Assembly: GCA_945787595.1 (NCBI GenBank)
Contig: CALZJV010000191.1
Location: 1-20,753, forward strand
Length of the DNA: 20,753 bases
DNA from: an uncultured Desulfobacterales bacterium
GTDB lineage: Bacteria; Desulfobacterota; Desulfobacteria; Desulfobacterales; JAFDCJ01
Reading direction: 5' to 3'
The notes beneath the pieces are model-generated. The model was not told the DNA's origin, ran no database searches, and worked only from the letters and a program-made list of their open reading frames with translations. This document shows, in pieces, positions 1,327 through 18,326 of this stretch (position 1 is its first letter; the number at the start of each line of letters is the position of its first letter). The position numbers and the translations under genes are program-made.

Positions 1327-2042
1327 TGTCGGATAACGCTGCCCTGAAAGTCGGAGGTCTCGATGTCCGATATAAGGATTTCCAGGCCTTGTGGAATGTC
1401 TCCTTTGAAGTCAGGCAGGGGGAGATTGTTTCGGTCATTGGTGCCAATGGTTCGGGCAAATCCACCCTGCTGAACACCATTGCCGGGCTACTATCCCCAT
1501 CGCGCGGGACAATCAAATTTTTTGGCGAGCGGATCGACGGTCTGCTGCCCCATGAGACCGTTCCGCGTGGGATAACATTGGTTCCCGAGGGAAGAAGGGT
1601 ATTTCCCCGGCTGACCGTTTTTGAGAATCTTGTCATGGGATCTTATATCCCCAGAACAAGGGCCGGGAAAGATGAGATGCTAAAAAAGATTTATGAGCTT
1701 TTTCCGATCCTAAGGGCGCGTCACAATCAGATGGCAAACACCCTCAGCGGCGGGGAGCAGCAAATGCTGGCGATCGGGCGGGCCATGATGTCCGAGCCGA
1801 AACTCATTCTTTGCGACGAGATTTCTCTCGGCCTGGCTCCGGTCGTCATCAAGGATATTTATAAACGCCTGGGGCAGATCAACCGCGATGGTATCACCAT
1901 TGTGCTGGTGGAGCAGGACATAAAACGCAGCCTCAAGGTGGCGAATCGGGCCTACATTATGCTGGAGGGAAAAGTGGTTCTTGAAGGGCAACCCGCCTCA
2001 CTGACGGAAGAGCAGGTCAAGAAGGCTTATTTTGGTATATAA
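1326..2042 (+). CDS. livF: LivF-type branched-chain amino acid ABC transporter ATP-binding protein
   Basis: This 238-residue protein is the second ATPase of the HAAT importer and energises uptake through LivH/LivM. Visible motifs are Walker A (GANGSGKST, 39-47), the PEGRRVFPRLTVFENL Q-loop region, the signature LSGGEQQ (140-146) and Walker B LILCDE (160-165) followed by the D-loop region. The switch position carries Gln (VLVEQ, about 197), which is normal for LivF. All parts of an active ATPase are present, in contrast to the neighbouring livG. I chose ATG 1326 because it forms a TAATG overlap with the livG stop, the usual livG-livF coupling; a TTG 27 bases upstream would add residues not seen in the family. 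If livG is really dead, LivF would have to act as a homodimer or pair with another LivG encoded elsewhere. Confidence 0.93.
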   Translation: MSDNAALKVGGLDVRYKDFQALWNVSFEVRQGEIVSVIGANGSGKSTLLNTIAGLLSPSRGTIKFFGERIDGLLPHETVPRGITLVPEGRRVFPRLTVFENLVMGSYIPRTRAGKDEMLKKIYELFPILRARHNQMANTLSGGEQQMLAIGRAMMSEPKLILCDEISLGLAPVVIKDIYKRLGQINRDGITIVLVEQDIKRSLKVANRAYIMLEGKVVLEGQPASLTEEQVKKAYFGI

Positions 2043-2043
2043 C

Positions 2044-2907
2044 ATGGAGGATCTATTACAACCCATATTAAACGGCATATTGCTCGGGGGGCTGTATGCC
2101 GTTATCGCCCTGGGAATGACCACCATGTTCGGGATTGTCAAATTGGTGAACCTTGCTCATGGCGATTTAATGATTCTTAGCAGTTACCTGAGTCTCACAT
2201 TTATCTCATGGTCGGGCGTCAATCCCTTTTGGTCCCTGCTCGTAATTGCTCCGGTCATGTTCCTCGTCGGCGTTTTAATTCAAGGGTTTCTTCTGAACAG
2301 GGTTTTGGGAAAAGAAATGGAACCGCCCCTTCTGGTTGCTTTCGGATTGTCGATTATTTTGCAAAATACGCTGCTGATGGTTTTCACTCCCGATGCGCGA
2401 AGCCTGATGACGGATCTGTCGGTAAAGACCATTCCGATTGGCAGTTTTCTGAACCTGCCGGTTCTCTACTTCGTGGATTTTTTACTGGGCTGCGCTGTTA
2501 TTCTGGCACTACACCTTTTCTTCAGGAAAACATATTTGGGCAGGGCTATTCGGGCCGCGTCTGATGATGAGATCGGCGCCCGGTTGATGGGGATCAATAC
2601 CCGCAACATTTATGCGTACGCCATGGGCATCGCCATGGTAACGGCGGCCGTGGCCGGTGTGCTGGTGGGAATGACGTTTACGTTTTACCCGCATACCGGT
2701 CCCCAGTACCTGATCATCGCCTTCGGGGTCATGATCATCGGCGGCCTGGGCAGCATGGCGGGGTGTTTGGTCGGTGGGATCATTTTGGCCGAAGCCCAGC
2801 TATTGGGGGCCCATTTTACCGGGCCGGGGTACCAGCTCCTCAGCGGTTATCTGGTGTTGCTGATCGTCCTGGGGATAAGACCTCAGGGGATATTTGGCAA
2901 GGCTTAG
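2044..2907 (+). CDS. livH: LivH-type ABC transporter permease
   Basis: Inner-membrane permease subunit (287 residues) of the HAAT-type importer. It begins with the family pattern QPILNGILLGGLYAVIALGMTTMFGIVKLVNLAHGD and has about eight hydrophobic segments. The cytoplasmic coupling loop (RKTYLGRAIRAASDDEIGARLMGIN) contacts the ATPases, and the conserved GGLGSMAGCLVGG segment and C-terminal RPQGIFG are present. The ATG at 2044 lies one base past the livF stop and fits the family start; an in-frame TTG at 2032 lies inside livF. Solute specificity is set by the binding protein, not by this subunit. Confidence 0.93.
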   Translation: MEDLLQPILNGILLGGLYAVIALGMTTMFGIVKLVNLAHGDLMILSSYLSLTFISWSGVNPFWSLLVIAPVMFLVGVLIQGFLLNRVLGKEMEPPLLVAFGLSIILQNTLLMVFTPDARSLMTDLSVKTIPIGSFLNLPVLYFVDFLLGCAVILALHLFFRKTYLGRAIRAASDDEIGARLMGINTRNIYAYAMGIAMVTAAVAGVLVGMTFTFYPHTGPQYLIIAFGVMIIGGLGSMAGCLVGGIILAEAQLLGAHFTGPGYQLLSGYLVLLIVLGIRPQGIFGKA

Positions 2908-5619: not shown

Positions 5620-6378
5620 ATGGGAAAAGTAAGACTCGTTGATTTAAGTCAACCCTTTGGCGACAAGTGTCCCCTATGGCCGTATTTCGCCGATGTCAAA
5701 ATCGAGCGCATGCATTATCATGCCAAATCCGGCGTGCTGTCCCAGGTCATAACGACCACGATGCACTGCACCACCCACGCTGATTCGCCGGCGCACGTTT
5801 TTGAAGGGGGTCAATACACATCTGAAATCCCTTTGGAAAAATATTACGGTACTGCCGTGATTGTGGATATTCCCAAGGGCAAGTGGGGCGTGATTACCCC
5901 GGAGGATTTGGAGAACGCCCGTCCCAAGATTGAAAAGGACGACATCGTGATCGTTCATACGGGCTGGCACAAGAAATATGCCGACAGCACCGAATATTTC
6001 TGCTACTCACCGGGTCTGTACAAAGAAGCGGGTCAATGGTTTGTTGAAAAAGGTGTCAAAGCTGTCGGTGTTGATCAACAGGCGCTGGATCATCCGCTGG
6101 GCACAGCCATCGGTCCTCATGGTTCCGGCCCCTTGCGTCCGGATATCTGCGAAGAGTATGAAAAGGAGACCGGTCGCAGCGTGAAGGAAGATTTTCCGCA
6201 CTGGGAACCCTGCCACCATCTCTTATTGAGAAATGGAATTATGGGCTGGGAAAACGTTGGCGGCGACCTTGAGCAGGTTGTTGGCAAACGATGCACCATT
6301 GCCGGCTTCCCTATTCGTTGGGAGAAAGGCGATGGGTCGATTGTCAGACTTGTGGCAATTGTAGAGGAGGATGGCTAA
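5620..6378 (+). CDS. Cyclase-family metal-dependent hydrolase (kynurenine formamidase / cyclohydrolase type)
   Basis: This 252-residue protein of the cyclase superfamily (PF04199) hydrolyses a cyclic or amide bond using a bound divalent metal. The signature HxxxHxDxPxH is present as HCTTHADSPAH (49-59): H49, H53 and D55 should hold metal and H59 should be catalytic. A second conserved patch (HHLLLRNGIMGWENVGG, 199-215) supplies a further His and Glu. There is no signal peptide, so it is cytoplasmic. Known relatives include kynurenine formamidase, isatin hydrolase and dihydrophloroglucinol cyclohydrolase. The linked SDR, 3-hydroxyacyl-CoA-dehydrogenase-like enzyme and transhydroxylase genes favour hydrolytic opening of a cyclic diketone derived from a polyhydroxybenzene. 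No tryptophan-pathway genes are nearby to support a kynurenine role. Family assignment is firm; substrate is inferred. Confidence 0.88.
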   Translation: MGKVRLVDLSQPFGDKCPLWPYFADVKIERMHYHAKSGVLSQVITTTMHCTTHADSPAHVFEGGQYTSEIPLEKYYGTAVIVDIPKGKWGVITPEDLENARPKIEKDDIVIVHTGWHKKYADSTEYFCYSPGLYKEAGQWFVEKGVKAVGVDQQALDHPLGTAIGPHGSGPLRPDICEEYEKETGRSVKEDFPHWEPCHHLLLRNGIMGWENVGGDLEQVVGKRCTIAGFPIRWEKGDGSIVRLVAIVEEDG

Positions 6379-6411
6379 AAAAAACGTAACCCGTTTATTT
6401 GAGGTAATCCC

Positions 6412-6747
6412 ATGAAAAAGATCCAATTAAAAGATGTAAAGTCTTACGAGGCTCCGGGGCATTTTGGCATGACAGCTATGCGATTGCACGGAAAAGAGGA
6501 AACCGGCGCTTCGAAATTCTGGGTTGGGCTGTCTCATTTTCTGCCGGGCGGCGGGGCCGAGTTCGCTGCTCCGCCGGGTGAGAAGATTTACTTTGTACTT
6601 GAAGGTGAAGTCACCATCAAAACACCGGAAGAAGAGATTGTCCTGAAGACGAATGACCTGATTTACATCGGTCCCGAAGAAGGTCGCGAGATCATTAACC
6701 GGACCAATCTTCCGGCCAGCATGCTGGTTGTCTATAGCTATGATTAA
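6412..6747 (+). CDS. Small single-domain cupin protein
   Basis: A 111-residue cytoplasmic protein with a single cupin barrel (Cupin_2 type), recognisable from LPGGGAEFAAPPGEKIYFVLEGEVTI and NDLIYIGPEEGREIINRTNLP. The usual metal ligands are altered. The HxH of motif 1 is missing (AEFAA, 49-53), leaving E50 and E57, and the motif 2 His is replaced by about E93. It is therefore probably not a standard Fe/Mn dioxygenase. It could bind a small molecule, act as an isomerase or decarboxylase, or coordinate metal through carboxylates. It begins 33 bases after the cyclase gene, with a GAGG ribosome site ahead of ATG 6412. The tight pairing suggests it acts on, or stabilises, the cyclase substrate or product. 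Confidence 0.8.
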   Translation: MKKIQLKDVKSYEAPGHFGMTAMRLHGKEETGASKFWVGLSHFLPGGGAEFAAPPGEKIYFVLEGEVTIKTPEEEIVLKTNDLIYIGPEEGREIINRTNLPASMLVVYSYD

Positions 6748-6796
6748 AGCATCAAGTTACAGGGAAATTTTCATCACTTAAATTAAAGACTGATCT

Positions 6797-6838
6797 GGCC
6801 GGACACCGATCTGCCGGTTCGGCCGACCTTCTTTTAAC
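6797..6838 (+). terminator. Possible GC-rich hairpin with T-rich tail between cupin and SDR genes
   Basis: GGCCGGAC (6797-6804) can pair with GTTCGGCC (6817-6824), one pair being G-U, around a 12-base loop. A T-rich stretch (ccttctttt) begins a few bases later. This could be a weak terminator or attenuator within the operon. The T tract is offset from the stem, so the call is tentative. Confidence 0.3.
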
Positions 6839-6858
6839 AACACAAGCGAGGTCTAAAA

Positions 6859-7638
6859 ATGAGCTTACCCGATATCAAGAATATCTTCGATGTCAGTGGG
6901 AAGGTGGCCCTTATCACCGGGGCCACCGGCGGCTTCGGTCATGCTGCTTCCTTGGGTTTGGCGGCGGCCGGCGTAAAGATAATGGCCACCGGCCGGTCCG
7001 ATGAAACGCTGCAACCTTTGGTCAAAGAGATAACGACAGCGGGCGGCGAGGCGGCTTGCAGTGCGGGGTCGCCGATCGTTTATGAAGATGTTAAGCGCGT
7101 GGTCCATGAAACGGTGGAGACATTTGGCGCTATTGACATCTTGATCACCGCGGCTGGTGTTAACAAGCCGGGGCAGATCACCGAACAATCCCTTGAAGAA
7201 TGGGATATGATTATGGATGCCAATGTTAAAGGCACTTATTTGTTCTGTAAAGAAGTCGGCAAGGTCATGATTGAACAGGGGCGCGGCGGTAAAGTTATTT
7301 TACTCGGATCGGCCCGGGGAGAGCTCGGGATGGCGAATTACACGGCCTATAGCCCATCAAAAGGCGCCATTCATCTGATGGCCAAATCCCTGGGTTGCGA
7401 ATGGGGTCCCCACAAAATCAATGTCAATGCCATCGCCCCCACCGTATTCCGTACGGCTTTGACCCAATGGATGTTTGATGACCAGGCTTTTTTTAAGAAT
7501 TTTTTAAAACGCATCCCGATCGGACGCCTGGGCGAACCTGAAGATTTCATCGGAACATTGATCTATCTTTCTTCGAAAGCATCCGACTTCATGACGGGTG
7601 CCGTTCTTTGTGTGGACGGCGGGTATACCGCCGGCTAG
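6859..7638 (+). CDS. Short-chain dehydrogenase/reductase (SDR), classical type
   Basis: A 259-residue NAD(P)(H)-dependent oxidoreductase of the classical SDR family. The dinucleotide motif TGATGGFG lies at 20-27, N122 sits in the DANVKG helix, and the catalytic triad is S151-Y164-K168 (YSPSK). The C-terminal LCVDGGYTAG is typical of 3-oxoacyl-ACP-reductase-like members. The usual NNAG motif is changed to TAAG (about 97-100). An Arg after the second strand (ATGRSDE) hints at NADP(H). Phloroglucinol reductase belongs to this family. Its place between a cyclase and a 3-hydroxyacyl-CoA-dehydrogenase-like gene makes reduction of a polyhydroxybenzene or ring ketone plausible, but reduction of an open-chain ketone cannot be excluded. 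The stop lies eight bases before the next gene, indicating one transcript. Confidence 0.9.
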   Translation: MSLPDIKNIFDVSGKVALITGATGGFGHAASLGLAAAGVKIMATGRSDETLQPLVKEITTAGGEAACSAGSPIVYEDVKRVVHETVETFGAIDILITAAGVNKPGQITEQSLEEWDMIMDANVKGTYLFCKEVGKVMIEQGRGGKVILLGSARGELGMANYTAYSPSKGAIHLMAKSLGCEWGPHKINVNAIAPTVFRTALTQWMFDDQAFFKNFLKRIPIGRLGEPEDFIGTLIYLSSKASDFMTGAVLCVDGGYTAG

Positions 7639-7646
7639 AGGTGACC

Positions 7647-8582
7647 ATGTCAAAACAAGAAAATATTGCCGTAATCGGTGCGGGATTGATGGGTCACGGC
7701 ATTGCCCAGATATTTGCCGTGCACGGCCACCCCGTGTTCCTGATGGATCTCGAAGACACGCTACTTTCAAATGCAATTGAAAGTATACGTGCCAATCTAG
7801 CGTTAATGGCTCAAAAGGGAATCGGTTCGGAAAAAGAGATTGAGCCGGCCATTCAAAGAATCAGGACAACAACAGATTTGGCAGAATCCGCATCGCAGGC
7901 CAAATTTGTCGTCGAGGCCGTCCTCGAAAAACTGGATCTGAAACAAAATGTTTTTAAAGACCTTGACGCCCTTTGTCCCCCGGATACCATTTTAGCCACC
8001 AACACGTCGGTGATCAGTATTACCGAAATTGCCCAAAAATCAAAACACCGGGGCCGGATTGTCGGAACCCACTTCTGGAATCCGCCTTATCTTATTCCCC
8101 TGGTTGAGGTTATCCGCGGGGATGAGTCGGATCAGCAGGCCGTCGACCGAACATTTGATCTATTGCAAGAAGTTGGCAAACATCCGGTGCGGGTGCAAAA
8201 GGATACACCGGGGTTTGTGGGCAATCGGCTCCAACACGCGCTGTGGCGCGAAGCCATTTCGATTGTGGAGCACGGTATCGCCAATGCAGCAACCGTGGAC
8301 GAGTGTATCCGTTATGGCTTCGGCCTGAGGTTGCCGGCCCTGGGCCCTTTGGAAAATGCGGACATGGTGGGAACGGACCTGACACTTGCCATCCATGACT
8401 ACATTTTAAAGTACTTGGAACGTTCGCCGAACCCTTCGCCCCTGCTGAAAGAAAAAGTGGCAGAAGGAAAGCTGGGCTTTAAATCCGGTGAGGGATTTCA
8501 GAAGTGGTCTGCCGAAGATGCCCAAAAATCGCGCAACGCCCTCGTGGAGTATCTATTGAAAGTGACTAGGACATTTGATTGA
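7647..8582 (+). CDS. 3-hydroxyacyl-CoA dehydrogenase family protein
   Basis: A 311-residue NAD-dependent dehydrogenase with an N-terminal Rossmann domain (GAGLMG, 11-16) and an all-helical C-terminal domain (3HCDH type). The catalytic elements are NTSVISIT (about 119-126), H142 in GTHFWNPP, and E154 in PLVEVIRG. The length matches single-domain 3-hydroxybutyryl-CoA dehydrogenase and the related enzymes that act on free hydroxy acids (L-gulonate and carnitine dehydrogenases). ATG 7647 is preceded by AGAGGTGA eight bases upstream, overlapping the SDR stop region; an upstream in-frame TTG-type extension lies within the SDR gene. In this cluster it may oxidise the 3-hydroxy-oxo acid released by ring opening. 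Whether the substrate is a CoA ester or a free acid cannot be read from sequence. Confidence 0.9.
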   Translation: MSKQENIAVIGAGLMGHGIAQIFAVHGHPVFLMDLEDTLLSNAIESIRANLALMAQKGIGSEKEIEPAIQRIRTTTDLAESASQAKFVVEAVLEKLDLKQNVFKDLDALCPPDTILATNTSVISITEIAQKSKHRGRIVGTHFWNPPYLIPLVEVIRGDESDQQAVDRTFDLLQEVGKHPVRVQKDTPGFVGNRLQHALWREAISIVEHGIANAATVDECIRYGFGLRLPALGPLENADMVGTDLTLAIHDYILKYLERSPNPSPLLKEKVAEGKLGFKSGEGFQKWSAEDAQKSRNALVEYLLKVTRTFD

Positions 8583-8764
8583 AGATTGTCGATTGAAGAT
8601 TGAATATTTAAGGTCCGCCTCTCTCCGAGCTGTAGGATCTACGAGCCGGAGGCCGGCAGGATCAATTATTAAAAAAAGATCACAAAAAAGGCAGAGCGAC
8701 ACGCGGCGCAAGCGCCTGCGCTGCGCGAGCGACATCCAAAAATCTTCAATATTCAATATTCAAT
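8577..8764. repeat. Composite intergenic repeat: AT-rich inverted arms around a GC-rich core
   Basis: The 293-base gap between the 3-hydroxyacyl-CoA-dehydrogenase-like gene and the M24 gene holds an AT-rich left arm (8577-8610, two copies of gattgaagatt) and an AT-rich right arm (8738-8764). Bases 8591-8608 and 8747-8764 are reverse complements at about 16 of 18 positions. Inside lie the dispersed repeat copy B and a GC-rich self-complementary block (GGCGCAAGCGCC, 8705-8716, within 8699-8731). No credible coding sequence is present. It looks like a small non-coding mobile or palindromic element, possibly nested. Confidence 0.55.
8612..8658 (-). repeat. Dispersed intergenic repeat, copy B (inverted relative to copy A)
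   Basis: The reverse complement of this 47-base stretch aligns with 5506-5553 over its whole length. The shared core is ccggctcgtaga-N-cctacag, with flanking gagag and ggacc blocks. Copy B sits just inside the left AT-rich arm of the composite repeat. Confidence 0.65.
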
Positions 8765-8875
8765 TCCGGCTTGTCCGGGTTGGGCATAGATCATGTGAGT
8801 TACTAGAACTGGACATACCGGTCTTATCGCATCGGTGTTTCCTTTATTATTGATAGGTTAAGGAGGGCGGATATC

Positions 8876-10066
8876 ATGGAAGCTTTCAACGAGAGGCTGG
8901 CGACAAGTATTGCAACCACTGAGCTTGAGCGCCGATGGCAGGCGAGCCGTGAGTTGATGCGGGATCAGAAAATCGATTATCTGATCATGCGCAACGACGA
9001 GGAGTTTTTGGGGGGTTATGTGAAATGGTTCACCGATTTGCCTGCCCGCCACAGCTATCCCTTTACGGTAATTTTCCCCGTCGACGAAGAAATGACCCTG
9101 GTCACCTGTGGCCCCAACCCGCCGTCCGATCCCGGTCCCCCTCCCTGGGCCGTGCGCGGTGTAAAACAACGCCTGGGGGCTCCCTATTTTCCTTCGGCGC
9201 ACTACACCAACACATATGATGCCGAGCTAGCGGTCGGGGTCCTGAAAACTAAAAAGGACGCCACCATCGGCCTGGTGGGAAAAGCGTTCATCCCGGTCAC
9301 TTTCTTTGAGTACTTGAATAACCATCTGTCCGGGTGCACCTTTGTCGATGCAACCGATGCCATTGATCAGATCAAAGCAATCAAAAGCCCGGCAGAATTA
9401 GAGCTGATTGAACGCACCGCCTGGCTCCAGGATGAGACCATCGAGCATTTAAAGACGGTGATCAAACCCGGAATGCGGGATTTTGAGATCTATGCCGAAA
9501 CACAATATATCACCAGCTTAAAGGGTAGCGAACGTCAGTTGATCCTGGTTGCTTCGGGACCGTCCGGCACCCCGGTTCCGTTCGCTCCACGGCATTTTCA
9601 AAACAGGGTGGTCAACGAAGGAGATCAAATCTCCGTCCTGATCGAAGTCAATGGGCCCGGCGGGTTTTACACCGAACTCGGCAGGATATTTTCAGTTGGA
9701 AAACCGTCACAGGAAATGCAGGATGCCTTCGGGGTCTCCCTGGAAGCTCAAAAATTGTCGCTCAGTATGTTAACGCCTGGAACGGACCCGAGAGAGGTTT
9801 GGGATGCCAACAATGCATTCCTTGAGAAAAAGGGCTATTTTCCTGAAAGGCGTCTATATGCTCACGGTCAAGGCTACGATCTTGTTGAGCGACCGCTTAT
9901 TCGTTATGATGAGCCCATGCAGATCCAAGCGGGGATGAATATGACGGTGCATCCCACGGTGGTGAGTGAGACCGTTTGGGTCGGGGTTACCGACAACTAT
10001 ATTGTCACCGAAACAGGGGTTGGCCCATGTCTTCATAAGACCCCTAAAGAAATCCTTGTGGTTTAA
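8876..10066 (+). CDS. M24 (creatinase/aminopeptidase P) family protein with non-canonical metal site
   Basis: A 396-residue protein with an N-terminal creatinase-like domain (about 15-165) and a C-terminal pita-bread domain (about 175-390). Peptidases of the family use five metal ligands (D, D, H, E, E). Here the aligned positions read E257 (LIEVNG), E267 (YTELGRIF), H330 (AHGQGYD), H359 (MTVHPT) and T372 (VTDNYIVTE), so only the His is retained. That argues against classic Xaa-Pro dipeptidase activity. It fits members that hydrolyse or eliminate small molecules, such as metal-free creatinase or the DMSP lyase DddP subgroup. AAGGAGGG upstream supports ATG 8876. It is followed 13 bases later by a hydroxyacid dehydrogenase gene, suggesting a joint step. 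The reaction is unknown. Confidence 0.85.
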   Translation: MEAFNERLATSIATTELERRWQASRELMRDQKIDYLIMRNDEEFLGGYVKWFTDLPARHSYPFTVIFPVDEEMTLVTCGPNPPSDPGPPPWAVRGVKQRLGAPYFPSAHYTNTYDAELAVGVLKTKKDATIGLVGKAFIPVTFFEYLNNHLSGCTFVDATDAIDQIKAIKSPAELELIERTAWLQDETIEHLKTVIKPGMRDFEIYAETQYITSLKGSERQLILVASGPSGTPVPFAPRHFQNRVVNEGDQISVLIEVNGPGGFYTELGRIFSVGKPSQEMQDAFGVSLEAQKLSLSMLTPGTDPREVWDANNAFLEKKGYFPERRLYAHGQGYDLVERPLIRYDEPMQIQAGMNMTVHPTVVSETVWVGVTDNYIVTETGVGPCLHKTPKEILVV

Positions 10067-10079
10067 GGAGAGAGTTGAA

Positions 10080-11045
10080 ATGAATTTGATTATCGTTGAC
10101 AGTGATGCCGATTATATAAAAGATAAATTAACGCCGAAGTTTCCGCAAGTTGATATTCAGGCCTACCACGATGAGGACGAGGCCGGCGATGCCATGGAAA
10201 AAGCCGATATTCTTTTGGCGAAAATGATTTCGGATGAACTCATGCAACGGGGTAAAAATCTTAAATGGATTCAGTGCCTGATTACCGGTGTCGATTATCT
10301 TGTCAACCTGCCGTCGTTTAAAAAAGACGTAATTCTCACTTCCACGCGTGGAATTCACGGTCCGCAGATGTCGGAACTGGCTATTTTGCTGATGCTTGCC
10401 TTGAATCGCAGCTTCCCTATGAATATTCGCAATCAGGACCAACGGGTTTGGCAGCGCTGGCCGACCCGATTGCTCTATCAGAAAAGTGTCGGCATACTGG
10501 GCGTGGGCGTTATCGGCCGGCAGATCGCCCGCAAGTGCAAGGCTTTTGGAATGACGGTTTACGGCCTGACCAGCATTAAACGTGAGATAGAATTTGTGGA
10601 CCATTCCTACGGTCCGGAAGGCCTGATCAATGTATTGGGTGAAGTGGATTATTTCATCAATGTAATTCCCTCCACGCCGCAGACTATAAACATGATCGGC
10701 GAGGAAGAACTGGCATCAATGAAACCGACAGCGTATTATATCAGCATCGGCAGGGGAGATACGGTAGACGAGGCGGCGTTAATCAGGGCACTTGAGGAAA
10801 AAAAGATCGCCGGGGCGGCCATGGATGTGTTTTTCACTGAGCCCTTGCCCCCGGACAGTCCGTTATGGGGAATGGAAAACGTGATTATTACGCCTCATAT
10901 CGGAGGGATGAGCGATATCTATGCGGATCAGGCCCTGCCTATTTTTGAAGAAAACCTGCGACGCTATCTTAGAGGAGAGAGAAGGGACTTGATTAACTTC
11001 ATTGAGTTAATTCGTACCGAAAATAGGAATGAAAGGAGGTGCTAG
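10080..11045 (+). CDS. D-isomer-specific 2-hydroxyacid dehydrogenase
   Basis: A 321-residue NAD(P)-dependent enzyme interconverting a 2-hydroxy acid and a 2-oxo acid. The Rossmann motif GVGVIG (141-146) is embedded between two halves of the catalytic domain. The catalytic residues R225 (SIGRGD), E254 (TEPLP) and H273 (TPHIGG) are all present. After the second Rossmann strand the acidic residue typical of NAD users is missing (YGLTSIKRE, 161-169), which favours NADP(H), as in glyoxylate/hydroxypyruvate reductases. ATG 10080 has an AAGGAGAG site eight to fifteen bases upstream and lies 13 bases after the M24 gene; the longer in-frame extension overlaps that gene. The C terminus (RTENRNERRC) is unusually basic. 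It probably works with the M24 protein on a 2-oxo or 2-hydroxy acid intermediate. Confidence 0.9.
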   Translation: MNLIIVDSDADYIKDKLTPKFPQVDIQAYHDEDEAGDAMEKADILLAKMISDELMQRGKNLKWIQCLITGVDYLVNLPSFKKDVILTSTRGIHGPQMSELAILLMLALNRSFPMNIRNQDQRVWQRWPTRLLYQKSVGILGVGVIGRQIARKCKAFGMTVYGLTSIKREIEFVDHSYGPEGLINVLGEVDYFINVIPSTPQTINMIGEEELASMKPTAYYISIGRGDTVDEAALIRALEEKKIAGAAMDVFFTEPLPPDSPLWGMENVIITPHIGGMSDIYADQALPIFEENLRRYLRGERRDLINFIELIRTENRNERRC

Positions 11046-11125
11046 ATTTTTTGGAAGTGAGGTACACATTATAAGAGGGTGCAGTTATATTTTAAGCGAT
11101 CGATAAAATAAAAAAGGAGGCGGTT

Positions 11126-12133
11126 ATGCAACGAAAAAGATTGGTGAAAACAATAATTACGGTAAGTTTCGCCATGCTCATGATGGTGATATTCCTTTCA
11201 CCCTGCCAGGCGGCATCTAAAATAACCATTGAAGCGATCACCGCTTGGCCCAAGACGACATTCATGGTTCAGAATTTCATGCGGTTTATGGAAAACACCA
11301 ATGCCAAAGCGGCCAAACAATACCCCGGAGAGTTCGAGATTATATACAAGGGCGGCCCGGAAGTAATTTCTTTTAAAGAGCAAGTCGAAGCCCTACGGAC
11401 CGGTCTAGTGGACATGGTCTTTACCGCCACTAGTTACTACACATCCATTATTCCCGCCGGAGACGGATTCAGCGCCAGTGATTACAAGCCTTGGGAAGAA
11501 CGTGAGAAAGGAGTTTTTAAATTTATGGAAAAAATCCATGCCGAGAAGGCCAATGCTTATTTTCTCTCGCGGATGGGTTCGGGAATTCCCTTTCAAATTT
11601 TTGTCAATAAAAAGGTCAAAACACTTGATGATTTAAAAGGCCTGAAACTCCGATGCTCGCCGACGCTGATTCCTTTTTTAAAAAAGATCGGGGCTAGCCC
11701 CGTCATGATGCCTCCAGGCGATATTTACACCGGTCTTGAACGCGGTGTGGTTCAGGGCTATGTCTGGCCGGCAGCCCAGATTCGGGAATGGGGCTGGGAA
11801 GCCGTCACCAAGTATGTGGTCGAACCGGCCACTCCGTATCAAGCCATTGATGTTGTGCTGGTCAATATGGATACCTGGAAAAAGCTTCCTAAAAACATCC
11901 AGAATCTTCTCATTGAGTCGGCTAAAGAAGATGAACGCAATACCATAAAGCGGGCCGAGGAATACATCCCCAGGGAGAATGCCGAGCTAAAAAAGATGGG
12001 CGTCGAGTTCCTCAGCCTACCCCAAGCCGATGCCGAAAAAATGCGCGCCGCCGCTGTCTCGGCTTTGTGGGAAGTCGTCATCAAGAGAGATCCGGAAAAC
12101 GGTCCAAAATTTAAAGAAATGGTTTCTAAATGA
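11126..12133 (+). CDS. dctP: TRAP transporter periplasmic substrate-binding protein (DctP type)
   Basis: A 335-residue extracytoplasmic solute receptor of a TRAP transporter, which delivers an organic acid to the DctQ/DctM membrane unit driven by an ion gradient. Residues 1-29 form a Sec signal peptide (KRLVKTIITV, hydrophobic core, cleavage near CQA-AS). The DctP fold is recognisable from FKEQVEALRTGLVDMVFTA and GSGIPFQIFVNKKVKTLDDLKGLKLRC. RCSPT around 182 carries the Arg that normally salt-bridges the substrate carboxylate. GDIYTGLERGVVQGYVWP is also typical. AAAGGAGG precedes ATG 11126. The likely ligand is a carboxylate, possibly aromatic given the neighbouring genes. Confidence 0.93.
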   Translation: MQRKRLVKTIITVSFAMLMMVIFLSPCQAASKITIEAITAWPKTTFMVQNFMRFMENTNAKAAKQYPGEFEIIYKGGPEVISFKEQVEALRTGLVDMVFTATSYYTSIIPAGDGFSASDYKPWEEREKGVFKFMEKIHAEKANAYFLSRMGSGIPFQIFVNKKVKTLDDLKGLKLRCSPTLIPFLKKIGASPVMMPPGDIYTGLERGVVQGYVWPAAQIREWGWEAVTKYVVEPATPYQAIDVVLVNMDTWKKLPKNIQNLLIESAKEDERNTIKRAEEYIPRENAELKKMGVEFLSLPQADAEKMRAAAVSALWEVVIKRDPENGPKFKEMVSK

Positions 12134-12182
12134 AAATAAGAAAAATAAAATACTGATGGACGGAAAAGGAGGAAATTGATCC

Positions 12183-12713
12183 GTGGACAAGGCATTGAGG
12201 GCAATATTATCAATTATGGTCGTGTTCGCTGGTCTTCTCCTCCTTTTCATCACCATTTCAATTGGATATACTATTTTCGCACGGTTTTTTGGGTTCTCCG
12301 GGCCGGTTTGGGTCGTACAATTTACCGAATATTCGTTGCTATGGATGACACTTTTAGGTGCGGCCTGGGTCCTTGAAAGAAACAAACACGTGTCGGTAGA
12401 TCTGCTCACAAGTCGATTAACTTCCCAAAACAATAATTATCTGCGTCTCGCCCACAGCGTAATGGGCATAACGGTTTGCGGTGTGCTTTGCTGGTACGGG
12501 GCCAAAGTTACCTGGGGGCAATATGTAAGAGGTGTAACCGACATTCAGGTCGTGGATATGCCCAAGTACCTGATTCTAATTATCATTCCCCTGGGGTTCC
12601 TGATTTTGACCTTGCAGTTCCTACGCAATTTTTTCACGAATTTGAACAAGGCACGGACCCTCCGGGACTCGTCTCCTGCAGGGGACGTCACTTCCGGCCA
12701 CGGGGAGCCTTAA
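12183..12713 (+). CDS. dctQ: TRAP transporter small permease (DctQ type)
   Basis: A 176-residue inner-membrane protein with four hydrophobic segments and the family patterns ARFFGFSGPVWVVQFTEYSLLWMTLLGAAWVLERNKHVSVDLL and DMPKYLILIIIPLGF. It forms the small membrane subunit that links the solute receptor to DctM. Translation starts at GTG 12183, chosen because AAAAGGAGG lies about ten bases upstream and no ATG in frame fits. The gene follows dctP by 49 bases. The hydrophilic tail (RTLRDSSPAGDVTSGHGEP) is cytoplasmic and not conserved. Confidence 0.92.
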   Translation: MDKALRAILSIMVVFAGLLLLFITISIGYTIFARFFGFSGPVWVVQFTEYSLLWMTLLGAAWVLERNKHVSVDLLTSRLTSQNNNYLRLAHSVMGITVCGVLCWYGAKVTWGQYVRGVTDIQVVDMPKYLILIIIPLGFLILTLQFLRNFFTNLNKARTLRDSSPAGDVTSGHGEP

Positions 12714-12737
12714 GCTTGAGTTAACCAAGTTAAATTA

Positions 12738-12810
12738 GGACACAGATTTGCACAGATATTTGGTTTTTTGTAGCTTTTAATATCCTGGTAATCCGTGTTC
12801 ATCCGTGTCC
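12738..12810. repeat. Imperfect inverted repeat built from CACAGAT / ATCCGTGT units
   Basis: In the 144-base gap between dctQ and dctM, bases 12738-12757 (two cacagat units) are the imperfect reverse complement of 12791-12810 (two atccgtgt units), 15 of 20 positions matching, with a 33-base AT-rich loop. It would form a hairpin in the dctQM transcript and could set the Q:M ratio, or it may be a miniature repeat element. The dctM start lies downstream of the right arm. Confidence 0.6.
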
Positions 12811-12857
12811 CCAAAATGGAAATTCCTGTACTTTTAAAGAGGGAGGAGACCCCTAAT

Positions 12858-14171
12858 ATGGAGTGGTGGGCTGTTTTACTTTTTTTCATTTCCGGGCTTA
12901 TCATTTTACTGCTGTCGGGATTTCCGATAGCCTTCGCCTTTCTGCTGATGGACCTGCTGGGCATTATTTTTATCATGGGTCCGCTCGGCCTCAACCAAAT
13001 CCCACTGCATGTGTTAAGCTCCATATCCACGTTTGTATTGGCGCCGATTCCAATGTTCATTTTTATGGGTGAGCTGATGTTTCACTCTGGAATAGCCTAT
13101 AATACCATTGATGTCATCGATCGATGGCTGGGGCGCCTGCCGGGGCGGCTGGGTTTGTTGGCTGCCGCAAGCGGCACCCTGTTTGCCGCAACCAGCGGCT
13201 CTACCATCGCCAATACGGCCATGCTGGGTACCGTGCTGCTGCCCGAAATGAAAAAGCGCGGCTACAAAAATTCCATGGCGATCGGGCCCATCGTGGGGGT
13301 CGGAGGGCTTGCCATGTTGATCCCTCCGTCAGCCCTGGCGGTGGTATTGGCCAGCATCGGGCACATTTCTGTGAGCAAAATCCTTGTGGGCGGCGTCATC
13401 CCGGGTCTGATGCTCGGACTCTTTTTTAGTTTGTATATCATTTTGCGTTGCTGGCTTAATCCGTCTCTAGCCCCCAGTTTCGAAACTTCCGGCACCCCTT
13501 TTTGGATTAGCGTTGCGGTATCCATTAAATATGTTCTGCCCATGGCCTTTATCATATTTATGGTCCTGGGCCTGATGCTTTTGGGGTTTGCTACCCCCTC
13601 AGAAGCGGCCGCCTCCGGTGTGGTTGCCACCGCGTTGGTTACGATTTTTTTCGGGCGCTTTAACTGGAAAATGCTCAAGTCCTCGGTCACGGGAACCCTG
13701 GAAATTTCAATTATGATTTTCATGATCATTGCCGCCTCTAAAACCTTCAGCAGCATCCTGGCCTATACCGGAGCCACCCGCGGATTATTGTCCCTGGTAG
13801 AGGGAGTCGATTTGCACCCAATCATCATTTTGATATGCATGCAGCTGTTGGTTTTTGTCATGGGCACCTTTATGGAGACGATTTCCATCATGATGATTTG
13901 CCTGCCCATCTTCATGCCCATATGCCAGATGCTCGGCTTTGATTCCGTGTGGTTTGGGGTCCTCATGCTTATCAACCTTGAAATGGGACAAATAACCCCC
14001 CCGTTTGGGATGCTCTTGTTCGTCATGAAGGGTGTGGCTCCGGCCGAAGTCACGATTCAAGAAATTTGCTGGGCGGCGCTGCCTTACATTATTTTTGATG
14101 TGATTGTCATCGCCATGATCATCATGTGGCCCCCATTAACGCTGTGGCTGCCTGGTTTTTTAGCCCATTGA
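12858..14171 (+). CDS. dctM: TRAP transporter large permease (DctM type)
   Basis: A 437-residue multi-spanning inner-membrane protein (about 12 segments) that carries the transport pathway of the TRAP system. Family landmarks are SGFPIAFAFLLM, FIFMGELMFHSGI, AASGTLFAATSGSTIANTAMLGTVLLPEMKKRGY, GGLAMLIPPSALAV, and the C-terminal EMGQITPPFGMLLFVMKG. The ATG at 12858 was chosen because GGGAGGAG lies at 12841-12848 and the mature family start (MEWWAVLLFF) follows; an in-frame ATG at 12795-type position would read through the intergenic repeat. The transhydroxylase-like gene begins ten bases after its stop, linking uptake directly with that enzyme. Confidence 0.94.
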   Translation: MEWWAVLLFFISGLIILLLSGFPIAFAFLLMDLLGIIFIMGPLGLNQIPLHVLSSISTFVLAPIPMFIFMGELMFHSGIAYNTIDVIDRWLGRLPGRLGLLAAASGTLFAATSGSTIANTAMLGTVLLPEMKKRGYKNSMAIGPIVGVGGLAMLIPPSALAVVLASIGHISVSKILVGGVIPGLMLGLFFSLYIILRCWLNPSLAPSFETSGTPFWISVAVSIKYVLPMAFIIFMVLGLMLLGFATPSEAAASGVVATALVTIFFGRFNWKMLKSSVTGTLEISIMIFMIIAASKTFSSILAYTGATRGLLSLVEGVDLHPIIILICMQLLVFVMGTFMETISIMMICLPIFMPICQMLGFDSVWFGVLMLINLEMGQITPPFGMLLFVMKGVAPAEVTIQEICWAALPYIIFDVIVIAMIIMWPPLTLWLPGFLAH

Positions 14172-14180
14172 GGAAGAAAA

Positions 14181-16784
14181 ATGAAGTTTAAACAGATGCA
14201 ATTTTCCAGCATTCTTTTCGGTCTTGAAAAATTGTTGAAACGCACGGCCAAAAAATATCCTGCCTTTGCCGAGCGGCTGTGGGAAAAAAATCTAACGGCT
14301 CAAATCAAACTGATGGATCATTCCTCCGGAAGGTTTTATACCTTCCATCATGGAAAGGTCAGTTCCCAAAATGGAATCCATGACAATCCCGATATTTGTA
14401 TGATGTTCAAAGATGCCGAACTGGCTGTTAAGCTGCTCATGCCACCCAGAGACCACCTGGCCATGATCAATGCCATGAAAAATTTTCAAATCGGACTCCA
14501 GGGTCCGGATGAATTGACCATGTGGTTTATGGAAACCCTCAATCAAATCTTTACCAGCGGCATGGTATACGGCACCGATGCAGGCAGCGGAGTCAAGCGC
14601 TACACCAGCAATACCAACGGCGGACCGGTTTTTGTTTATGTGAAAGATAACAAGATTATCCGCATTACGCCGATTGAATTCGATGACAGCGATGCCGACC
14701 CCTGGACTATCACGGCCCGGGGCAAAGAATTCACGCCGCCGCGCAAGACCACGGTTAATCCATATACCCTGGCCTGGAAGTCCATGGTCTACTCCCGGGA
14801 CCGGTTATTGTATCCCATGAAGCGGGTGGATTTTGACCCCAACGGTGAACGCAACTGTCAAAACAGAGGAATATCCGGCTATGAGAGAATTAGCTGGGAC
14901 GAAGCCCTTGATATTGTTGCCGATCAAATCAGAGGCGTTAAGAAAGAATATGGCCCCGGCGCCATTTTAAACGGCAGCGGTTCGCACCATACCTGGGGGC
15001 ATCTCGGCTACTGGCTAAGCAGTCGTCTTCGGTTTTTTAATACGATCGGCTTTACACCGGTAGTCCACAATCCCGATAGTTGGGAAGGATGGTATTGGGG
15101 GGCCATGCATCATTGGGGACACAGCTCGCGTCTGGGGGCACCGGAAACCTACGGTACGGTGGAAGATTGTCTCAAGCATTGTGAAATGATTGTTTTCTGG
15201 TCCAGTGATCCGGAATCCACCAGTGGGGTTTACGGTGCATTTGAGGGTACCATCCGGCGCCAATGGTTGAAAGAATTGGGAATAAAAATGGTTCATATCG
15301 ATCCATTTTATAACCATACCGCCGCGTTAATGGGCGGCAAATGGCTGGCCCCCAGACCGGCGACCGGCAATGCCTTAGCCCTTGCCATTGCCTACGTTTG
15401 GATCACCGAGGAGCTTTACGACCGGCAATATGTCGCCAATCGTACGGTCGGGTTTGACAAGTGGAAAGATTATATCCTAGGCCAAGAAGACGGCCTACCC
15501 AAAACGCCCGAGTGGCAGGAAAATGAATCTAACATTGCCGCCAAAGATGCCAGAGCGCTGGCCAGGGAATGGGGATCCCAAAAGACCTATCTGGCTGCCG
15601 GCGGGCTGCAGGGTTTTGGCAGCGCCTGCAGATGTGCCACGGGCAATGAATGGGCCCGTTCGATGGTTTGTTTGATGGCCATGCAGGGCTTGGGTAAACC
15701 CGGAGTTAATATGGGATGTCTGCAGCAGGGCACCCCGGTTGATACGAAGTTTTTCTTTCCGGGTTATGCTGAGGGCGGATTGTCCGGTGACATCCAGGGC
15801 ACTGCCATGGCGGTCAATATGTACCAGCGGATGCCCCAGCTTCCCACCGTCAACTCGGTGTATCAACGCGTCCCCCGCTTGAAAATACCCGAGGCGGTTC
15901 TGGACGGACATTGCGAAGGCTATCCCACCGATCCGAAAACAATTGAAGGACAATTTCTTAAATTCGGCTATCCGACACCGGGCCATTCACCCGTAAAAAT
16001 GTATTATAAATACGGAGGGTCTCACTTCGGCACCATGACGGAGACCAATCGATATGCCAGAGCCTACCGATCTGATAATTTAGAATTTGTGGTCAACCAG
16101 TCCATCTGGTTTGAAGGTGAAGCAAAATTTGCGGATGTATTATTGCCGGCCTGCACCAGCTTCGAAAGATGGGATATCAGTGAATTTGCCAATTGCGGCG
16201 GATACATCCAACATTCATTTACACAGTGCAACCATCGCGTTGCCGTCCTGCAACATAAATGCATTGAGCCTCTGGGGGAATCAAAGTCCGATTACCGGAT
16301 CTTCTGGGATTTGACCAAGCGGTTGGGGCTGGCGGCCCCGTTTTCCGAGGGCATGAGTGAATTGGAATGGTGCAAGCGACTGTTTGATGCCACGGACCTG
16401 CCCAACCACATTTCCTGGAAAGACTTCCTCAAAAAGGGATACTTTGTCATTCCGCCCCCGCCGGAAAATCTCAGGGACCCGGTATCCTTTCGATGGTATG
16501 CCGAGGATAGGCCCAAGGATACCCCCGAGTTGGCACCCTTGCCCGCGGATTATACCGAGCAATTCGGCCAAGGGCTTCAGACGCAATCCGGCAAACTCGA
16601 ATTTGAGTGTTCCAGTCTGAAACGGTTTGACCCCCATGACCCGGAGCGGCCGCCGATCAGCAAATATATTCCGGCCTGGGAAGGCCATCATACCACGGCG
16701 CTTTATGAAAAATATCCATTGCAGCTGATATCGCCGCATCCGCGGTTCAGCTTTCATACCATGGGCGAATCGTCAACGATGTGA
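14181..16784 (+). CDS. athL: Transhydroxylase-like molybdopterin oxidoreductase large subunit, with N-terminal SCP-2-like domain (frameshifted before its C-terminal domain)
   Basis: Large catalytic subunit (867 residues to the stop) of a DMSO-reductase-family enzyme closely resembling pyrogallol-phloroglucinol transhydroxylase of Pelobacter acidigallici. From about residue 143 ([20 protein letters not shown]) the match runs end to end. The residues known to matter in AthL are conserved: His144 as H269 (SHHTWG), Asp174 as D299 and the Mo ligand Ser175 as S300 (NPDSWEGW), and Tyr404 as Y529 (FPGYAEGG). There is no Tat signal, so it is cytoplasmic. Residues 1-140 are an extra domain that resembles SCP-2 lipid-binding proteins ([26 protein letters not shown]) and is absent from AthL. 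Translation ends at TGA 16782-16784 within the conserved HTMG...KDHRV region; the remaining C-terminal domain continues in another frame. GAGGAA precedes ATG 14181. The exact substrate is inferred, not proven. Confidence 0.88.
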
Positions 16785-17131
16785 AAGATCACCGGGTGCT
16801 GATAGACGGATATTACTACTGGATTGTACGGATCAACTCGCAAGACGCCGGCGGCCGGGGAATCGGCCCCAACGATTTGGTGAAAGTCTTCAATGATCGC
16901 GGTGCAGTCATTTGCGCGGCCCAGGTTACCGAGCGAATTCCACCCGGCTCAGCTCACTCCTATGAATCGGCCGCCGATTACGACCCGGTAGGCGAACCCG
17001 GAGAGTCGCCGGATCGCGGGGGGTGCATTAATATTTTAACGCCGAGTCGCTCTATCATCAAAAAGTCCCATAGCATTGCCTGCAATTCGTGCCTGGTGCA
17101 AATCGAAAAATGGGAACAAAAGGGAGCGTAA
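16781..17131 (+). CDS. athL: C-terminal molybdopterin-dinucleotide-binding domain of the transhydroxylase-like large subunit (separate frame)
   Basis: This 116-residue frame carries the last domain of the large subunit: [27 protein letters not shown], then [42 protein letters not shown], then [13 protein letters not shown]. Each block matches the AthL C terminus, and the domain normally wraps one pyranopterin cofactor. It is out of frame with the preceding segment. Bases 16769-16780 in this frame read IVND and continue the family sequence (N-D-V-K-D-H-R-V), so the break lies around 16765-16780. GTG 16781 overlaps the upstream TGA, but no ribosome site is visible. A frameshift or sequencing error is therefore more likely than a genuine split gene. 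Together the two parts give the expected length. Confidence 0.85.
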
Positions 17132-17138
17132 AGAACCC

Positions 17139-17978
17139 ATGAATAAATGGAACCTGATCATCGATATCGAAGAATGTGAAGATTGTAATAATTGCTTCCT
17201 GGCCTGCAAAGACGAACATGTTGACAATGACTGGCCCGGCTATGCGGTGTCGCAACCCTTACACGGGCAGCGCTGGATGAATATTATGCGCAAGGAAAGG
17301 GGACAATACCCTGTTATTGATGTGGCTTATTTGCCGGTTCCGTGTATGCATTGCGATAATGCCCCCTGTATCAAAGCGGCCAAGGACGGGTCGGTTTACA
17401 AGAGAGATGACGGTATCGTCATCATTGATCCGATCAAGGCCAGGGGCCAAAAGGATATCGTCAGGAGCTGCCCCTATGAGGCGATCTGGTGGAACGAAGA
17501 ACATCATACATCGCAAAAATGCACGTTTTGCACCCATTTGCTGGATGACGGCTGGAAAGCGCCCCGTTGCGTGCAGGCCTGTCCGACGGGTGCCCTGCGG
17601 GTTGTGCAGGCTGAGGACCCTGAGATGCTGAAAATCATCGAATCTGAAAAACTTGAAGTCCGGCATCCGCAATACAACACAACGCCACGTGTGTTTTACA
17701 AGAATCTGTATCGTTATTCCCGCTGTTTTATCGGCGGCAGTGTAGCGCTTAACGTCGACGGCATCAGTGATTGCGCCAAAGGGGCGCGGGTAACGCTGAT
17801 CAAAGATGCAAAAAAAATTGATGAAACCGTAACCGATGGCTTCGGGGACTTCAAGTTTGATAATCTTGAAGAAAATGGCGGTGCCTACCAGCTAGAAATA
17901 GTGTATGAAGATTATAACCGAAAAATGGTTGAGGTTGAATTGAAGACCAGCCTCAATGTCGGAGATATTTGTTTATAA
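17139..17978 (+). CDS. athS: Transhydroxylase-like iron-sulfur small subunit
   Basis: A 279-residue electron-transfer subunit partnering the molybdenum subunit, close to the 275-residue AthS. Twelve Cys in three groups fit three [4Fe-4S] clusters: C13/C16/C19/C23, C69/C72/C77 plus C111, and C128/C131/C144/C148. The fourth Cys of the second motif, present in four-cluster DmsB-type proteins, is absent (CIKAAKDG), exactly as in AthS. After residue 198 a beta-rich domain (VALNVDGISDCAKGARVTLIKD, TDGFGDFKFDNLEENGGAYQLEIV) matches the AthS C-terminal barrel. ATG 17139 starts seven bases after the large-subunit frame ends, with AGGGAG upstream; the longer in-frame extension lies inside that gene. 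The stop abuts a foreign gene fragment. Confidence 0.92.
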   Translation: MNKWNLIIDIEECEDCNNCFLACKDEHVDNDWPGYAVSQPLHGQRWMNIMRKERGQYPVIDVAYLPVPCMHCDNAPCIKAAKDGSVYKRDDGIVIIDPIKARGQKDIVRSCPYEAIWWNEEHHTSQKCTFCTHLLDDGWKAPRCVQACPTGALRVVQAEDPEMLKIIESEKLEVRHPQYNTTPRVFYKNLYRYSRCFIGGSVALNVDGISDCAKGARVTLIKDAKKIDETVTDGFGDFKFDNLEENGGAYQLEIVYEDYNRKMVEVELKTSLNVGDICL

Positions 17979-18326
17979 TTGTTTATTTCGCATGATCTGG
18001 CATTGGTGGATTATTTTTGTAGCCGGGTGGTCGTCATGTACCTTGGCAGTGTGGTGGAGATCCTTCCAGCCAACCAGGTTTCGGTTGCACCCCGACACCC
18101 TTACACCAAAGCCCTGTCGGATAGTGTTTTTGTGGCCGACCCGGCGGCCCGCAAAGAGACGGTGCCCATCGAAGGGGAGGTACTCAGCCCCTTCAATTTG
18201 CCGCCCGGATGCGTGTTTGAGGCCCGCTGTCCATATGTCCAGGATGTATGCCGCAAGAACCCGCCGGCTATCACGGAGAAAGCCGAGATTGAATATGTGG
18301 CCTGTCATTTTCCGCTGGCTGTATAG
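17979..18326 (+). pseudogene. C-terminal fragment of an oligopeptide/dipeptide ABC transporter ATPase (OppF/DppF type)
   Basis: The frame begins abruptly within the H-loop region (FISHDLALVDYFCSRVVVMYLGSVVEI) and continues through the oligopeptide-transporter C-terminal domain (HPYTKALSDSVF, EGEVLSPFNLPPGCVFEARCPY, CRKNPPAI) to a normal end at VACHFPLAV. Walker A, the signature and Walker B, about 200 residues, are missing, so it cannot bind ATP productively. It starts directly after the athS stop, with no start codon of its own beyond a TTG and no ribosome site. This is a remnant left by a deletion or rearrangement; no other opp/dpp genes are in the window. Confidence 0.85.

Follow-up and report, generated by a model that had tools for sequence, protein, structure and literature searches.

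A contig of 20,753 nucleotides from an uncultured Desulfobacterales bacterium, the whole of which is called the window here, carries on its plus strand a row of genes that probably forms an operon for reductive ring degradation of the phloroglucinol type. Observed directly are gene content and kinship, residue marks of a cyclase-family hydrolase and a 3HCDH-family dehydrogenase, the clade of an SDR, an operon structure that recurs in other bacteria, and the position of an AthL-like molybdo-enzyme outside the Pelobacter clade. We infer the steps, the substrate, and the AthL product as follows. An imported phenol would be converted into phloroglucinol or a close analogue by molybdenum-dependent hydroxylation or hydroxyl transfer, catalyzed by an AthL fused to an SCP2-fold domain together with AthS. 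The SDR would reduce phloroglucinol to dihydrophloroglucinol with NADPH, the cyclase would open the ring to give 3-hydroxy-5-oxohexanoate, and the 3HCDH would convert this into triacetate, whose cleavage would fall to a beta-keto-acid cleavage enzyme (BKACE) that must be encoded outside the window.

The features of the window are given below. The importer genes were identified by visual reading and from their similarity to relatives, whose loci carry numbers beginning with L.

3..707, plus strand: IclR-family regulator, truncated by the window start (PF01614, 125.8 bits); IclR also precedes the corresponding genes in L001
726..1325, plus strand: livG, HAAT importer ATPase, damaged; first frame stops at 1184
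1326..2042, plus strand: livF, HAAT importer ATPase; 78% to the L001 counterpart
2044..2907, plus strand: livH, HAAT permease; 80% to L001
3169..4137, plus strand: livM, HAAT permease; 80% to L001
4192..5484, plus strand: HAAT substrate-binding protein; 80% to L001; adjoins the cyclase in L241 too
5620..6378, plus strand: cyclase-family hydrolase of the dihydrophloroglucinol cyclohydrolase (DPGC) type; PF04199, Trp20 and Tyr22
6412..6747, plus strand: small cupin, recurrent cluster member; PF07883
6859..7638, plus strand: SDR of the phloroglucinol reductase (PGR) type; best PDB match 5g4k, shared clade
7647..8582, plus strand: 3HCDH-family dehydrogenase of the triacetate-forming dehydrogenase (TfD) type, by residue pattern
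8876..10066, plus strand: M24-fold enzyme, second module; PF00557, metal-site residues altered in the alignment to prolidase 3q6d
10080..11045, plus strand: D-2-hydroxyacid dehydrogenase, second module; PF02826, 73% to the L230 counterpart
11126..12133, plus strand: TRAP substrate-binding protein, second module; 71% to the L230 counterpart
12183..12713, plus strand: TRAP small permease; 61% to the L230 counterpart
12795..14171, plus strand: TRAP large permease; 79% to the L230 counterpart
14181..14600, plus strand: SCP2-fold N-terminal domain (about 140 aa) of the AthL-like protein, by fold prediction, without Pfam match
14601..16784, plus strand: AthL-like molybdopterin catalytic part, SCP2-fused clade, early stop; PF21423 (AhtL-like) and molybdopterin domain, 57% to 4v4c_A
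16781..17131, plus strand: C-terminal molybdopterin-dinucleotide-binding domain of AthL, in another frame; PF01568
17139..17978, plus strand: AthS-like iron-sulfur subunit; 273 bits to 4v4c_B (Pelobacter AthS, the best solved relative)
17979..18326, plus strand: OppF-like ATPase, C-terminal remnant abutting the athS stop; PF08352

An earlier note on this DNA had named genes between 5620 and 17978. All of these lie there on the plus strand, and the family calls hold (cyclase PF04199, SDR, 3HCDH, M24, D-2-hydroxyacid dehydrogenase, AthL-like protein, and iron-sulfur subunit), as does the placing of the TRAP system just upstream of athL, with nine bases between the end of the large permease gene and the athL start codon (14171/14181). 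The note left the cupin unmentioned and missed the extension and split of athL, the livG defect, and the OppF fragment. Its interpretation was supported for the downstream enzymes and the missing BKACE, but not for the identity of AthLS or for the exclusion of the M24 enzyme and the D-2-hydroxyacid dehydrogenase.

Downstream enzymes and the cleavage step

The pathway of Clostridium scatologenes comprises PGR (an SDR), DPGC (cyclase family), TfD, and triacetate acetoacetate-lyase (TAL), the last being a BKACE-family enzyme with Trp16 (Zhou et al., 2023, PMC10470551). According to that paper, DPGC is marked by Trp20 and Tyr22 where isatin hydrolase has Ile and Leu, and TfD, annotated as a 3-hydroxyacyl-CoA dehydrogenase, retains Ser, His, and Asn as catalytic residues but has neither Lys56 nor Asn221 of HBD. 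The DPGC, TfD, and BKACE types were assigned here by these published residue marks.

The window cyclase has W20 and Y22, as published for CsDPGC. This W-Y pair was present in 32 of the 83 aligned cyclases (window included), among them 27 of the 28 relatives with at least 53% identity, the exception being L151 from a tandem array with W-S, and also in four cyclases at 40–43% identity. Cyclases without the pair came mostly from tandem arrays and had W-S or L/M/Y/W-G. The pair was found in none of the 27 readable control cyclases, which derived from 29 matches (three pairs sharing one frame, two unreadable at the two positions) in 12 genomes hand-picked for having many cyclase candidates and no close AthL.

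The best solved match of the SDR was 5g4k with 237 bits, the next protein reaching 173.5 bits, and in a tree of 42 SDRs it grouped with 5g4k at a support of 0.999. We take 5g4k, which the PDB names only as an SDR, to be the phloroglucinol reductase of Clostridium sp. ATCC BAA-442. At what may be the PGR NADPH motif TR(S/N), the window SDR reads TGRS and 5g4k TGRN. PGR was matched at E ≤ 1e-45 just twice in 398 genomes of Moorella's phylum, in both cases by a sequence that is not a named reference.

In the window 3HCDH these three catalytic residues are conserved, with Ile in place of HBD Lys56 and Gly in place of Asn221. Among 24 aligned sequences, Gly occupied the second site in 23, and Lys occupied the first site in none, eight being gapped there. 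Since the published TfD is annotated as a 3-hydroxyacyl-CoA dehydrogenase (PMC10470551), the doubt raised earlier about the family of the 3-hydroxy-5-oxohexanoate dehydrogenase is settled in favor of 3HCDH. Taken together, the SDR tree and the residue marks of the other two enzymes give good sequence support to the predicted phloroglucinol-type assignment of the downstream enzymes, already made in the earlier note.

Clustering with kynurenine formamidase and fatty-acid ketoreductases, which the earlier note had named as the contrary outcome, did not occur. The nearest solved relatives of the cyclase were kynurenine formamidases at a weak 42 bits, and this identity was rejected on its score of 63.9 bits versus an arylformamidase cut-off of 223 bits, the W-Y marks, and the control cyclases. 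For the SDR, a FabG identity was rejected because the best chain named FabG gave 138 bits versus the value for 5g4k, and because of the tree placement.

The window yielded no BKACE gene: when three BKACE proteins served as tblastn queries, no match had an E value below 0.13, in agreement with the earlier remark that the last cleavage enzyme is absent from it. BKACE genes were present in 11 of 11 genomes of relatives versus 1 of 14 control genomes and, by tblastn, in 9 of the 80 AthL loci described below. L001, L240, L241, L245, and L248 have an operon that includes BKACE, and the Trp16-type enzyme was seen in L006, L103/L161, L084, and L245.

Recurrence of the operon

AthL loci were collected by scanning one genome per species. 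Of 569 loci, the 80 that best matched the full-length window protein were kept, a choice that favors the fused form; many of the 80 are cut by contig ends. The full set of cyclase, cupin, SDR, and 3HCDH was found in seven of them (L001, L003, L007, L008, L016, L023, and L067), and the Deltaproteobacteria of L001 and L016 are probably relatives of the source organism. L241 carries on one strand livF (cut), livH, livM, the HAAT binding protein, cyclase, cupin, BKACE, SDR, 3HCDH, fused AthL, AthS, and a second AthL-AthS pair, and the gene order agrees in L001, L240, and L248. L245 has a row of W-Y cyclase, cupin, PGR-type SDR, 3HCDH, Trp16-type BKACE, fused AthL, and AthS; it has every published mark that could be tested, plus the fused enzyme, and slightly strengthens the phloroglucinol-type reading. 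In L161 (Moorella sulfitireducens), the row consists of thiolase, cupin, SDR, 3HCDH, W-Y cyclase, Trp16-type BKACE, HAAT importer, and fused AthLS. The cupin gene, for which no useful solved relative was found in the PDB, adjoins the cyclase in L001, L158, L240, L241, and L094, and is one gene further away in L093.

Co-occurrence across genomes was also scored, with p values uncorrected for kinship. A cyclase match at E ≤ 1e-30 was obtained in 48 of the 76 distinct genomes having AthL loci. Among 85 genomes of one class, 15 of which had an AthL homologue of any kind, a cyclase at E ≤ 1e-60 occurred in 12 (window-type and tandem-type together, four having the tandem type only); an AthL homologue was present in 12 of these 12 versus 3 of the 73 without (Fisher p = 3.5e-12; 1.2e-10 without the two seed genomes). 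For the window-type cyclase (at least 66% identity) and the fused AthL, six of the 85 genomes had both, two and two had one only, and 75 had neither (p = 1.7e-6).

Tandem cyclase pairs were observed in L162, L164, and L169–L173. At the DPGC positions, one copy has W-S; the other usually has L/M/Y-G and occasionally W-G. L162 has an AthL of the Lys153 clade without the SCP2 domain, L171 and L173 have the fused form, and L164, L169, L170, and L172 have none in the stretch. These loci look like a separate ring-opening system for another substrate.

The AthL-like protein and the rival readings

The window copy shows damage. The first athL frame stops at 16784 and the PF01568 domain follows in another frame (16781–17131); compared with a 94%-identical relative, which is a single protein of 987 aa, a short stretch has been lost out of frame near 16768. 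From livG, about residues 135–167 of the 241 in its relative are gone, again out of frame, and a C-terminal OppF fragment starts at 17979, directly after the athS stop. The window copy may therefore make no working AthL or LivG, and the description "complete front end" given earlier was too strong for it. That decay or misassembly has left the window with a non-working version of the operon, whatever the intact form does, is a real possibility, if short of an even one. It is favored by the out-of-frame losses in two genes and the truncation of a third, and by the C-terminal PF01568 being present in 18 of 18 other listed proteins with at least 90% identity and missing from the first frame of the window (four lower-identity proteins, maybe cut by contig ends, also lack it). 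The other frames are nevertheless open at full length, save the edge-cut IclR gene, and the base composition stays at 45–54% G+C with no step at the junctions. An assembly error fits as well as decay, since frame problems of the cyclase also occur in the relatives L001 and L248.

The window AthL is 57% identical to the crystallised large subunit of Pelobacter acidigallici AthLS (4v4c_A) over 727 aligned residues, shares with that system the pairing of a molybdenum large subunit with an iron-sulfur subunit, and keeps His144, Asp174, Trp176, Tyr404, and Tyr560. It differs by an N-terminal extension of about 140 residues that is absent from the Pelobacter protein. Because Pfam gave no match for this domain at E ≤ 10, its fold was predicted with AlphaFold 2 (mean pLDDT 91.0) and was found to be SCP2-like, matching UbiJ-SCP2 and SCP2; judging by this fold, the domain may assist in binding a hydrophobic phenol. 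The fusion was not found in open-licence titles and abstracts under words linking AthL to SCP2 or a sterol carrier, or under those for a gene cluster of PGR and transhydroxylase. In addition, Arg153 is replaced by Trp and Trp354 by Phe, two residues that presumably line the substrate pocket.

The window AthL is not in the Pelobacter clade. In the tree, a fused clade of 91 sequences (support 0.85) is sister to the 10-member Pelobacter clade (0.95); Arg153 occurs in 0 of the 91 and in 10 of 10, respectively, and Trp354 in 8 of the 10. The fused form was found in eight of the 85 genomes of one class, five of which also hold the Pelobacter-type enzyme, and in L241 the two are adjacent. The fused clade includes the Thauera chlorobenzoica protein P0285, to which the window AthL is 64.3% identical versus 56.9% to Pelobacter AthL, and which differs from it in having Tyr/His instead of Trp/Phe at positions 153/354. 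P0285 carries the UniRef label "3,5-dihydroxybenzoate hy...", which we read as hydroxylase, and the pathway of the Thauera enzyme presumably leads to hydroxyhydroquinone. No sequence could be recognised by name as the resorcinol hydroxylase RhL of Azoarcus anaerobius; among the homologues listed for a Lys153-type AthL and the Magnetospirillum AthL (the best 120 of thousands), the Thauera label was the sole lead.

The earlier note had taken AthLS for the pyrogallol–phloroglucinol transhydroxylase, which would place the cluster in the known pyrogallol pathway and require that the SCP2 domain and the site changes leave specificity unchanged. The identity to the crystallised enzyme, its five retained residues, and downstream genes that fit phloroglucinol speak for this reading. 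We nevertheless consider it unlikely, given the separate clade, the added domain, the loss of Arg153 throughout the fused form, the replacement of Trp354, and the retention of a Pelobacter-type enzyme in five of eight fused-form genomes. Because of the different clade, the loss of Arg153 and Trp354, the closer kinship to the Thauera protein, and the co-occurrence with the Pelobacter-type enzyme, the fused AthL probably acts on a phenol other than pyrogallol, with its product entering the phloroglucinol route.

Less likely again is a reading in which fused AthLS acts as a hydroxylase of the resorcinol or 3,5-dihydroxybenzoate type, yielding hydroxyhydroquinone or its carboxylate for an oxidative pathway, while the phloroglucinol genes serve another substrate. 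The kinship to the Thauera protein and the lipoyl-dependent dehydrogenase genes beside AthL in L003 (read by eye) would suit such a role; against it, fused AthLS lies downstream of, and co-directional with, phloroglucinol-type genes in L001, L240, L241, L245, and L248, and no hydroxyhydroquinone-pathway gene was recognised in the window, where no search with reference sequences of that pathway was made. We also put forward, tentatively, a hybrid anaerobic pathway: the SCP2-fused molybdenum enzyme, as a hydroxylase or transhydroxylase related to the starter of the oxidative resorcylate route, would supply the reductive route through phloroglucinol and would do so in several genomes alongside the Pelobacter-type enzyme.

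Several observations weigh against the reading of the cluster as a phloroglucinol-type operon with a distinct fused AthL. As 73 of the 80 AthL loci, many of them contig-cut, lack the full set of cyclase, cupin, SDR, and 3HCDH, the fused AthL family seems to act in other pathways too. The common intermediate need not be phloroglucinol, since another SDR type lies within the cluster in L001, L003, L007, L008, L161, and L244, and the 0.999 SDR clade is broad, including SDRs of tandem-cyclase loci. The cyclase lies in two frames in L001, and in L248 only residues 155–250 (the last 96) were matched. In L001, L016, L240, and L241, the operon BKACE is without Trp16, the mark of the characterised TAL (PMC10470551); that of L245 has it. 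The fused clade is moderately supported (0.85 in one tree, 0.815 in another), and the name of P0285 is a database label, incomplete after "hy".

That unrelated metabolic genes stand together by chance, with a fatty-acid type SDR and 3HCDH and a kynurenine formamidase-like cyclase, is highly improbable: all three families are large and the cyclase is weakly nearest to kynurenine formamidases among solved structures, but the residue marks, the SDR tree, the recurrence of the operon across phyla, and the co-occurrence contradict it.

Second module, known systems, and significance

The M24-fold enzyme and the D-2-hydroxyacid dehydrogenase, set aside earlier as not fitting the route, both recur beside the phloroglucinol-type pathway in unrelated bacteria, alpha- and betaproteobacteria among them, and appear, on this evidence, to belong to it. 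Their genes adjoin each other in L230, L231, L233, L235, and L236. In the 85 genomes searched, the M24 gene neighbored the dehydrogenase gene in all five with a dehydrogenase match at E ≤ 1e-70 (two of these matches contain a stop); TRAP genes come next in three of the five, and in a fourth the contig stops at that point. Nine of the 85 had an M24 match at E ≤ 1e-60, seven of them together with AthL. In the betaproteobacterial loci L166 and L167, the M24 and dehydrogenase genes lie beside cyclase, cupin, and BKACE, with no SDR1- or 3HCDH-like gene in the stretch. A Rhizobium plasmid instead carries an M24 relative and a 2-hydroxyacid dehydrogenase within an oxygen-using aromatic cluster. The window arrangement joins two units, because the five-gene unit stands apart from the fused AthL gene in L230, L231, and L233, all three relatives in which the unit was seen.

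Solved relatives of the M24 enzyme in the PDB were only distant prolidases and similar proteins. In an alignment to prolidase 3q6d, read by eye, four of the five usual metal-ligand positions, as we assume them to be, differ; since most of these positions are altered, a peptidase role is unlikely. The second-best solved relative of the D-2-hydroxyacid dehydrogenase was named phenylpyruvate reductase, too weak a match for assignment. Judging from linkage, the unit of M24 enzyme, dehydrogenase, and TRAP importer may import and trim a substituted precursor, and the earlier guess of a substituted or novel polyphenol as substrate is compatible with this.

The window shares with the C. scatologenes cluster (PMC10470551) a PGR-type SDR, a DPGC-type cyclase with Trp20/Tyr22, and a TfD-type 3HCDH, with BKACE in the operons of relatives. 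It differs in lacking BKACE and in having the cupin, the HAAT and TRAP importers, the M24 enzyme, the D-2-hydroxyacid dehydrogenase, and the molybdo-enzyme. Pacificitalea manganoxidans pDY25-C and Aminobacter sp. MSH1 pUSP2 have IclR, cyclase, cupin, SDR, 3HCDH, HAAT, BKACE, TRAP, D-2-hydroxyacid dehydrogenase, and M24 genes within about 20 kb; they differ in that AthLS is absent from the stretches read and that Aminobacter has oxygen-using neighbors. In the Aminobacter locus (L224), a cytochrome P450, ferredoxin, reductase, SRPBCC protein, and S-(hydroxymethyl)glutathione dehydrogenase are encoded beside the phloroglucinol-type genes, which suggests O-demethylation of a methoxyphenol upstream.

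SCP2-fused AthLS was also seen in probably aerobic bacteria, namely, on Ensifer and Salipiger plasmids (L228 and L229), next to VOC and fumarylacetoacetate hydrolase genes, and in Alphaproteobacteria (L043, L073, and L077), next to TRAP permease genes; the full phloroglucinol set is not in these stretches, and the SCP2-fused AthL family thus seems to serve several pathways. In L003 (14465–22560), fused AthLS has next to it, as read by eye, an AOR-like gene, genes for lipoate, and a dehydrogenase complex that is lipoyl-dependent; we take this complex to resemble the 2-hydroxybenzoquinone-cleaving complex of resorcinol degraders. Elsewhere in the window, a minus-strand gene (19294–20130) encodes a fusion protein in which an N-terminal SCO4226-like domain (nickel-responsive family) is followed by the catalytic domain of an adenylate/guanylate cyclase.

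Among the database entries listed, fused-form proteins are named "pyrogallol hydroxytransferase" or "trimethylamine-N-oxide reductase." Genome papers inferred the use of pyrogallol, or the hydroxylation of phenols with meta-placed hydroxyls, from AthL-like genes (PMC3971608, PMC4959651). If the SCP2-fused form has another substrate, such genome predictions need to be sorted by clade, and the entry step to anaerobic polyphenol degradation gains a gene to test. If the hybrid pathway is true, resorcinol-type, hydroxyhydroquinone-type, or more hydrophobic phenols would be degradable via phloroglucinol. One of the sequential transhydroxylases reported from biochemical work on Pelobacter massiliensis would then have the fused enzyme as a candidate. 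The unit of M24 enzyme, D-2-hydroxyacid dehydrogenase, and TRAP importer would in that case free the phenol from a substituted precursor. Independently of the hybrid pathway, the second module adds two enzymes that appear to be tied to ring degradation.

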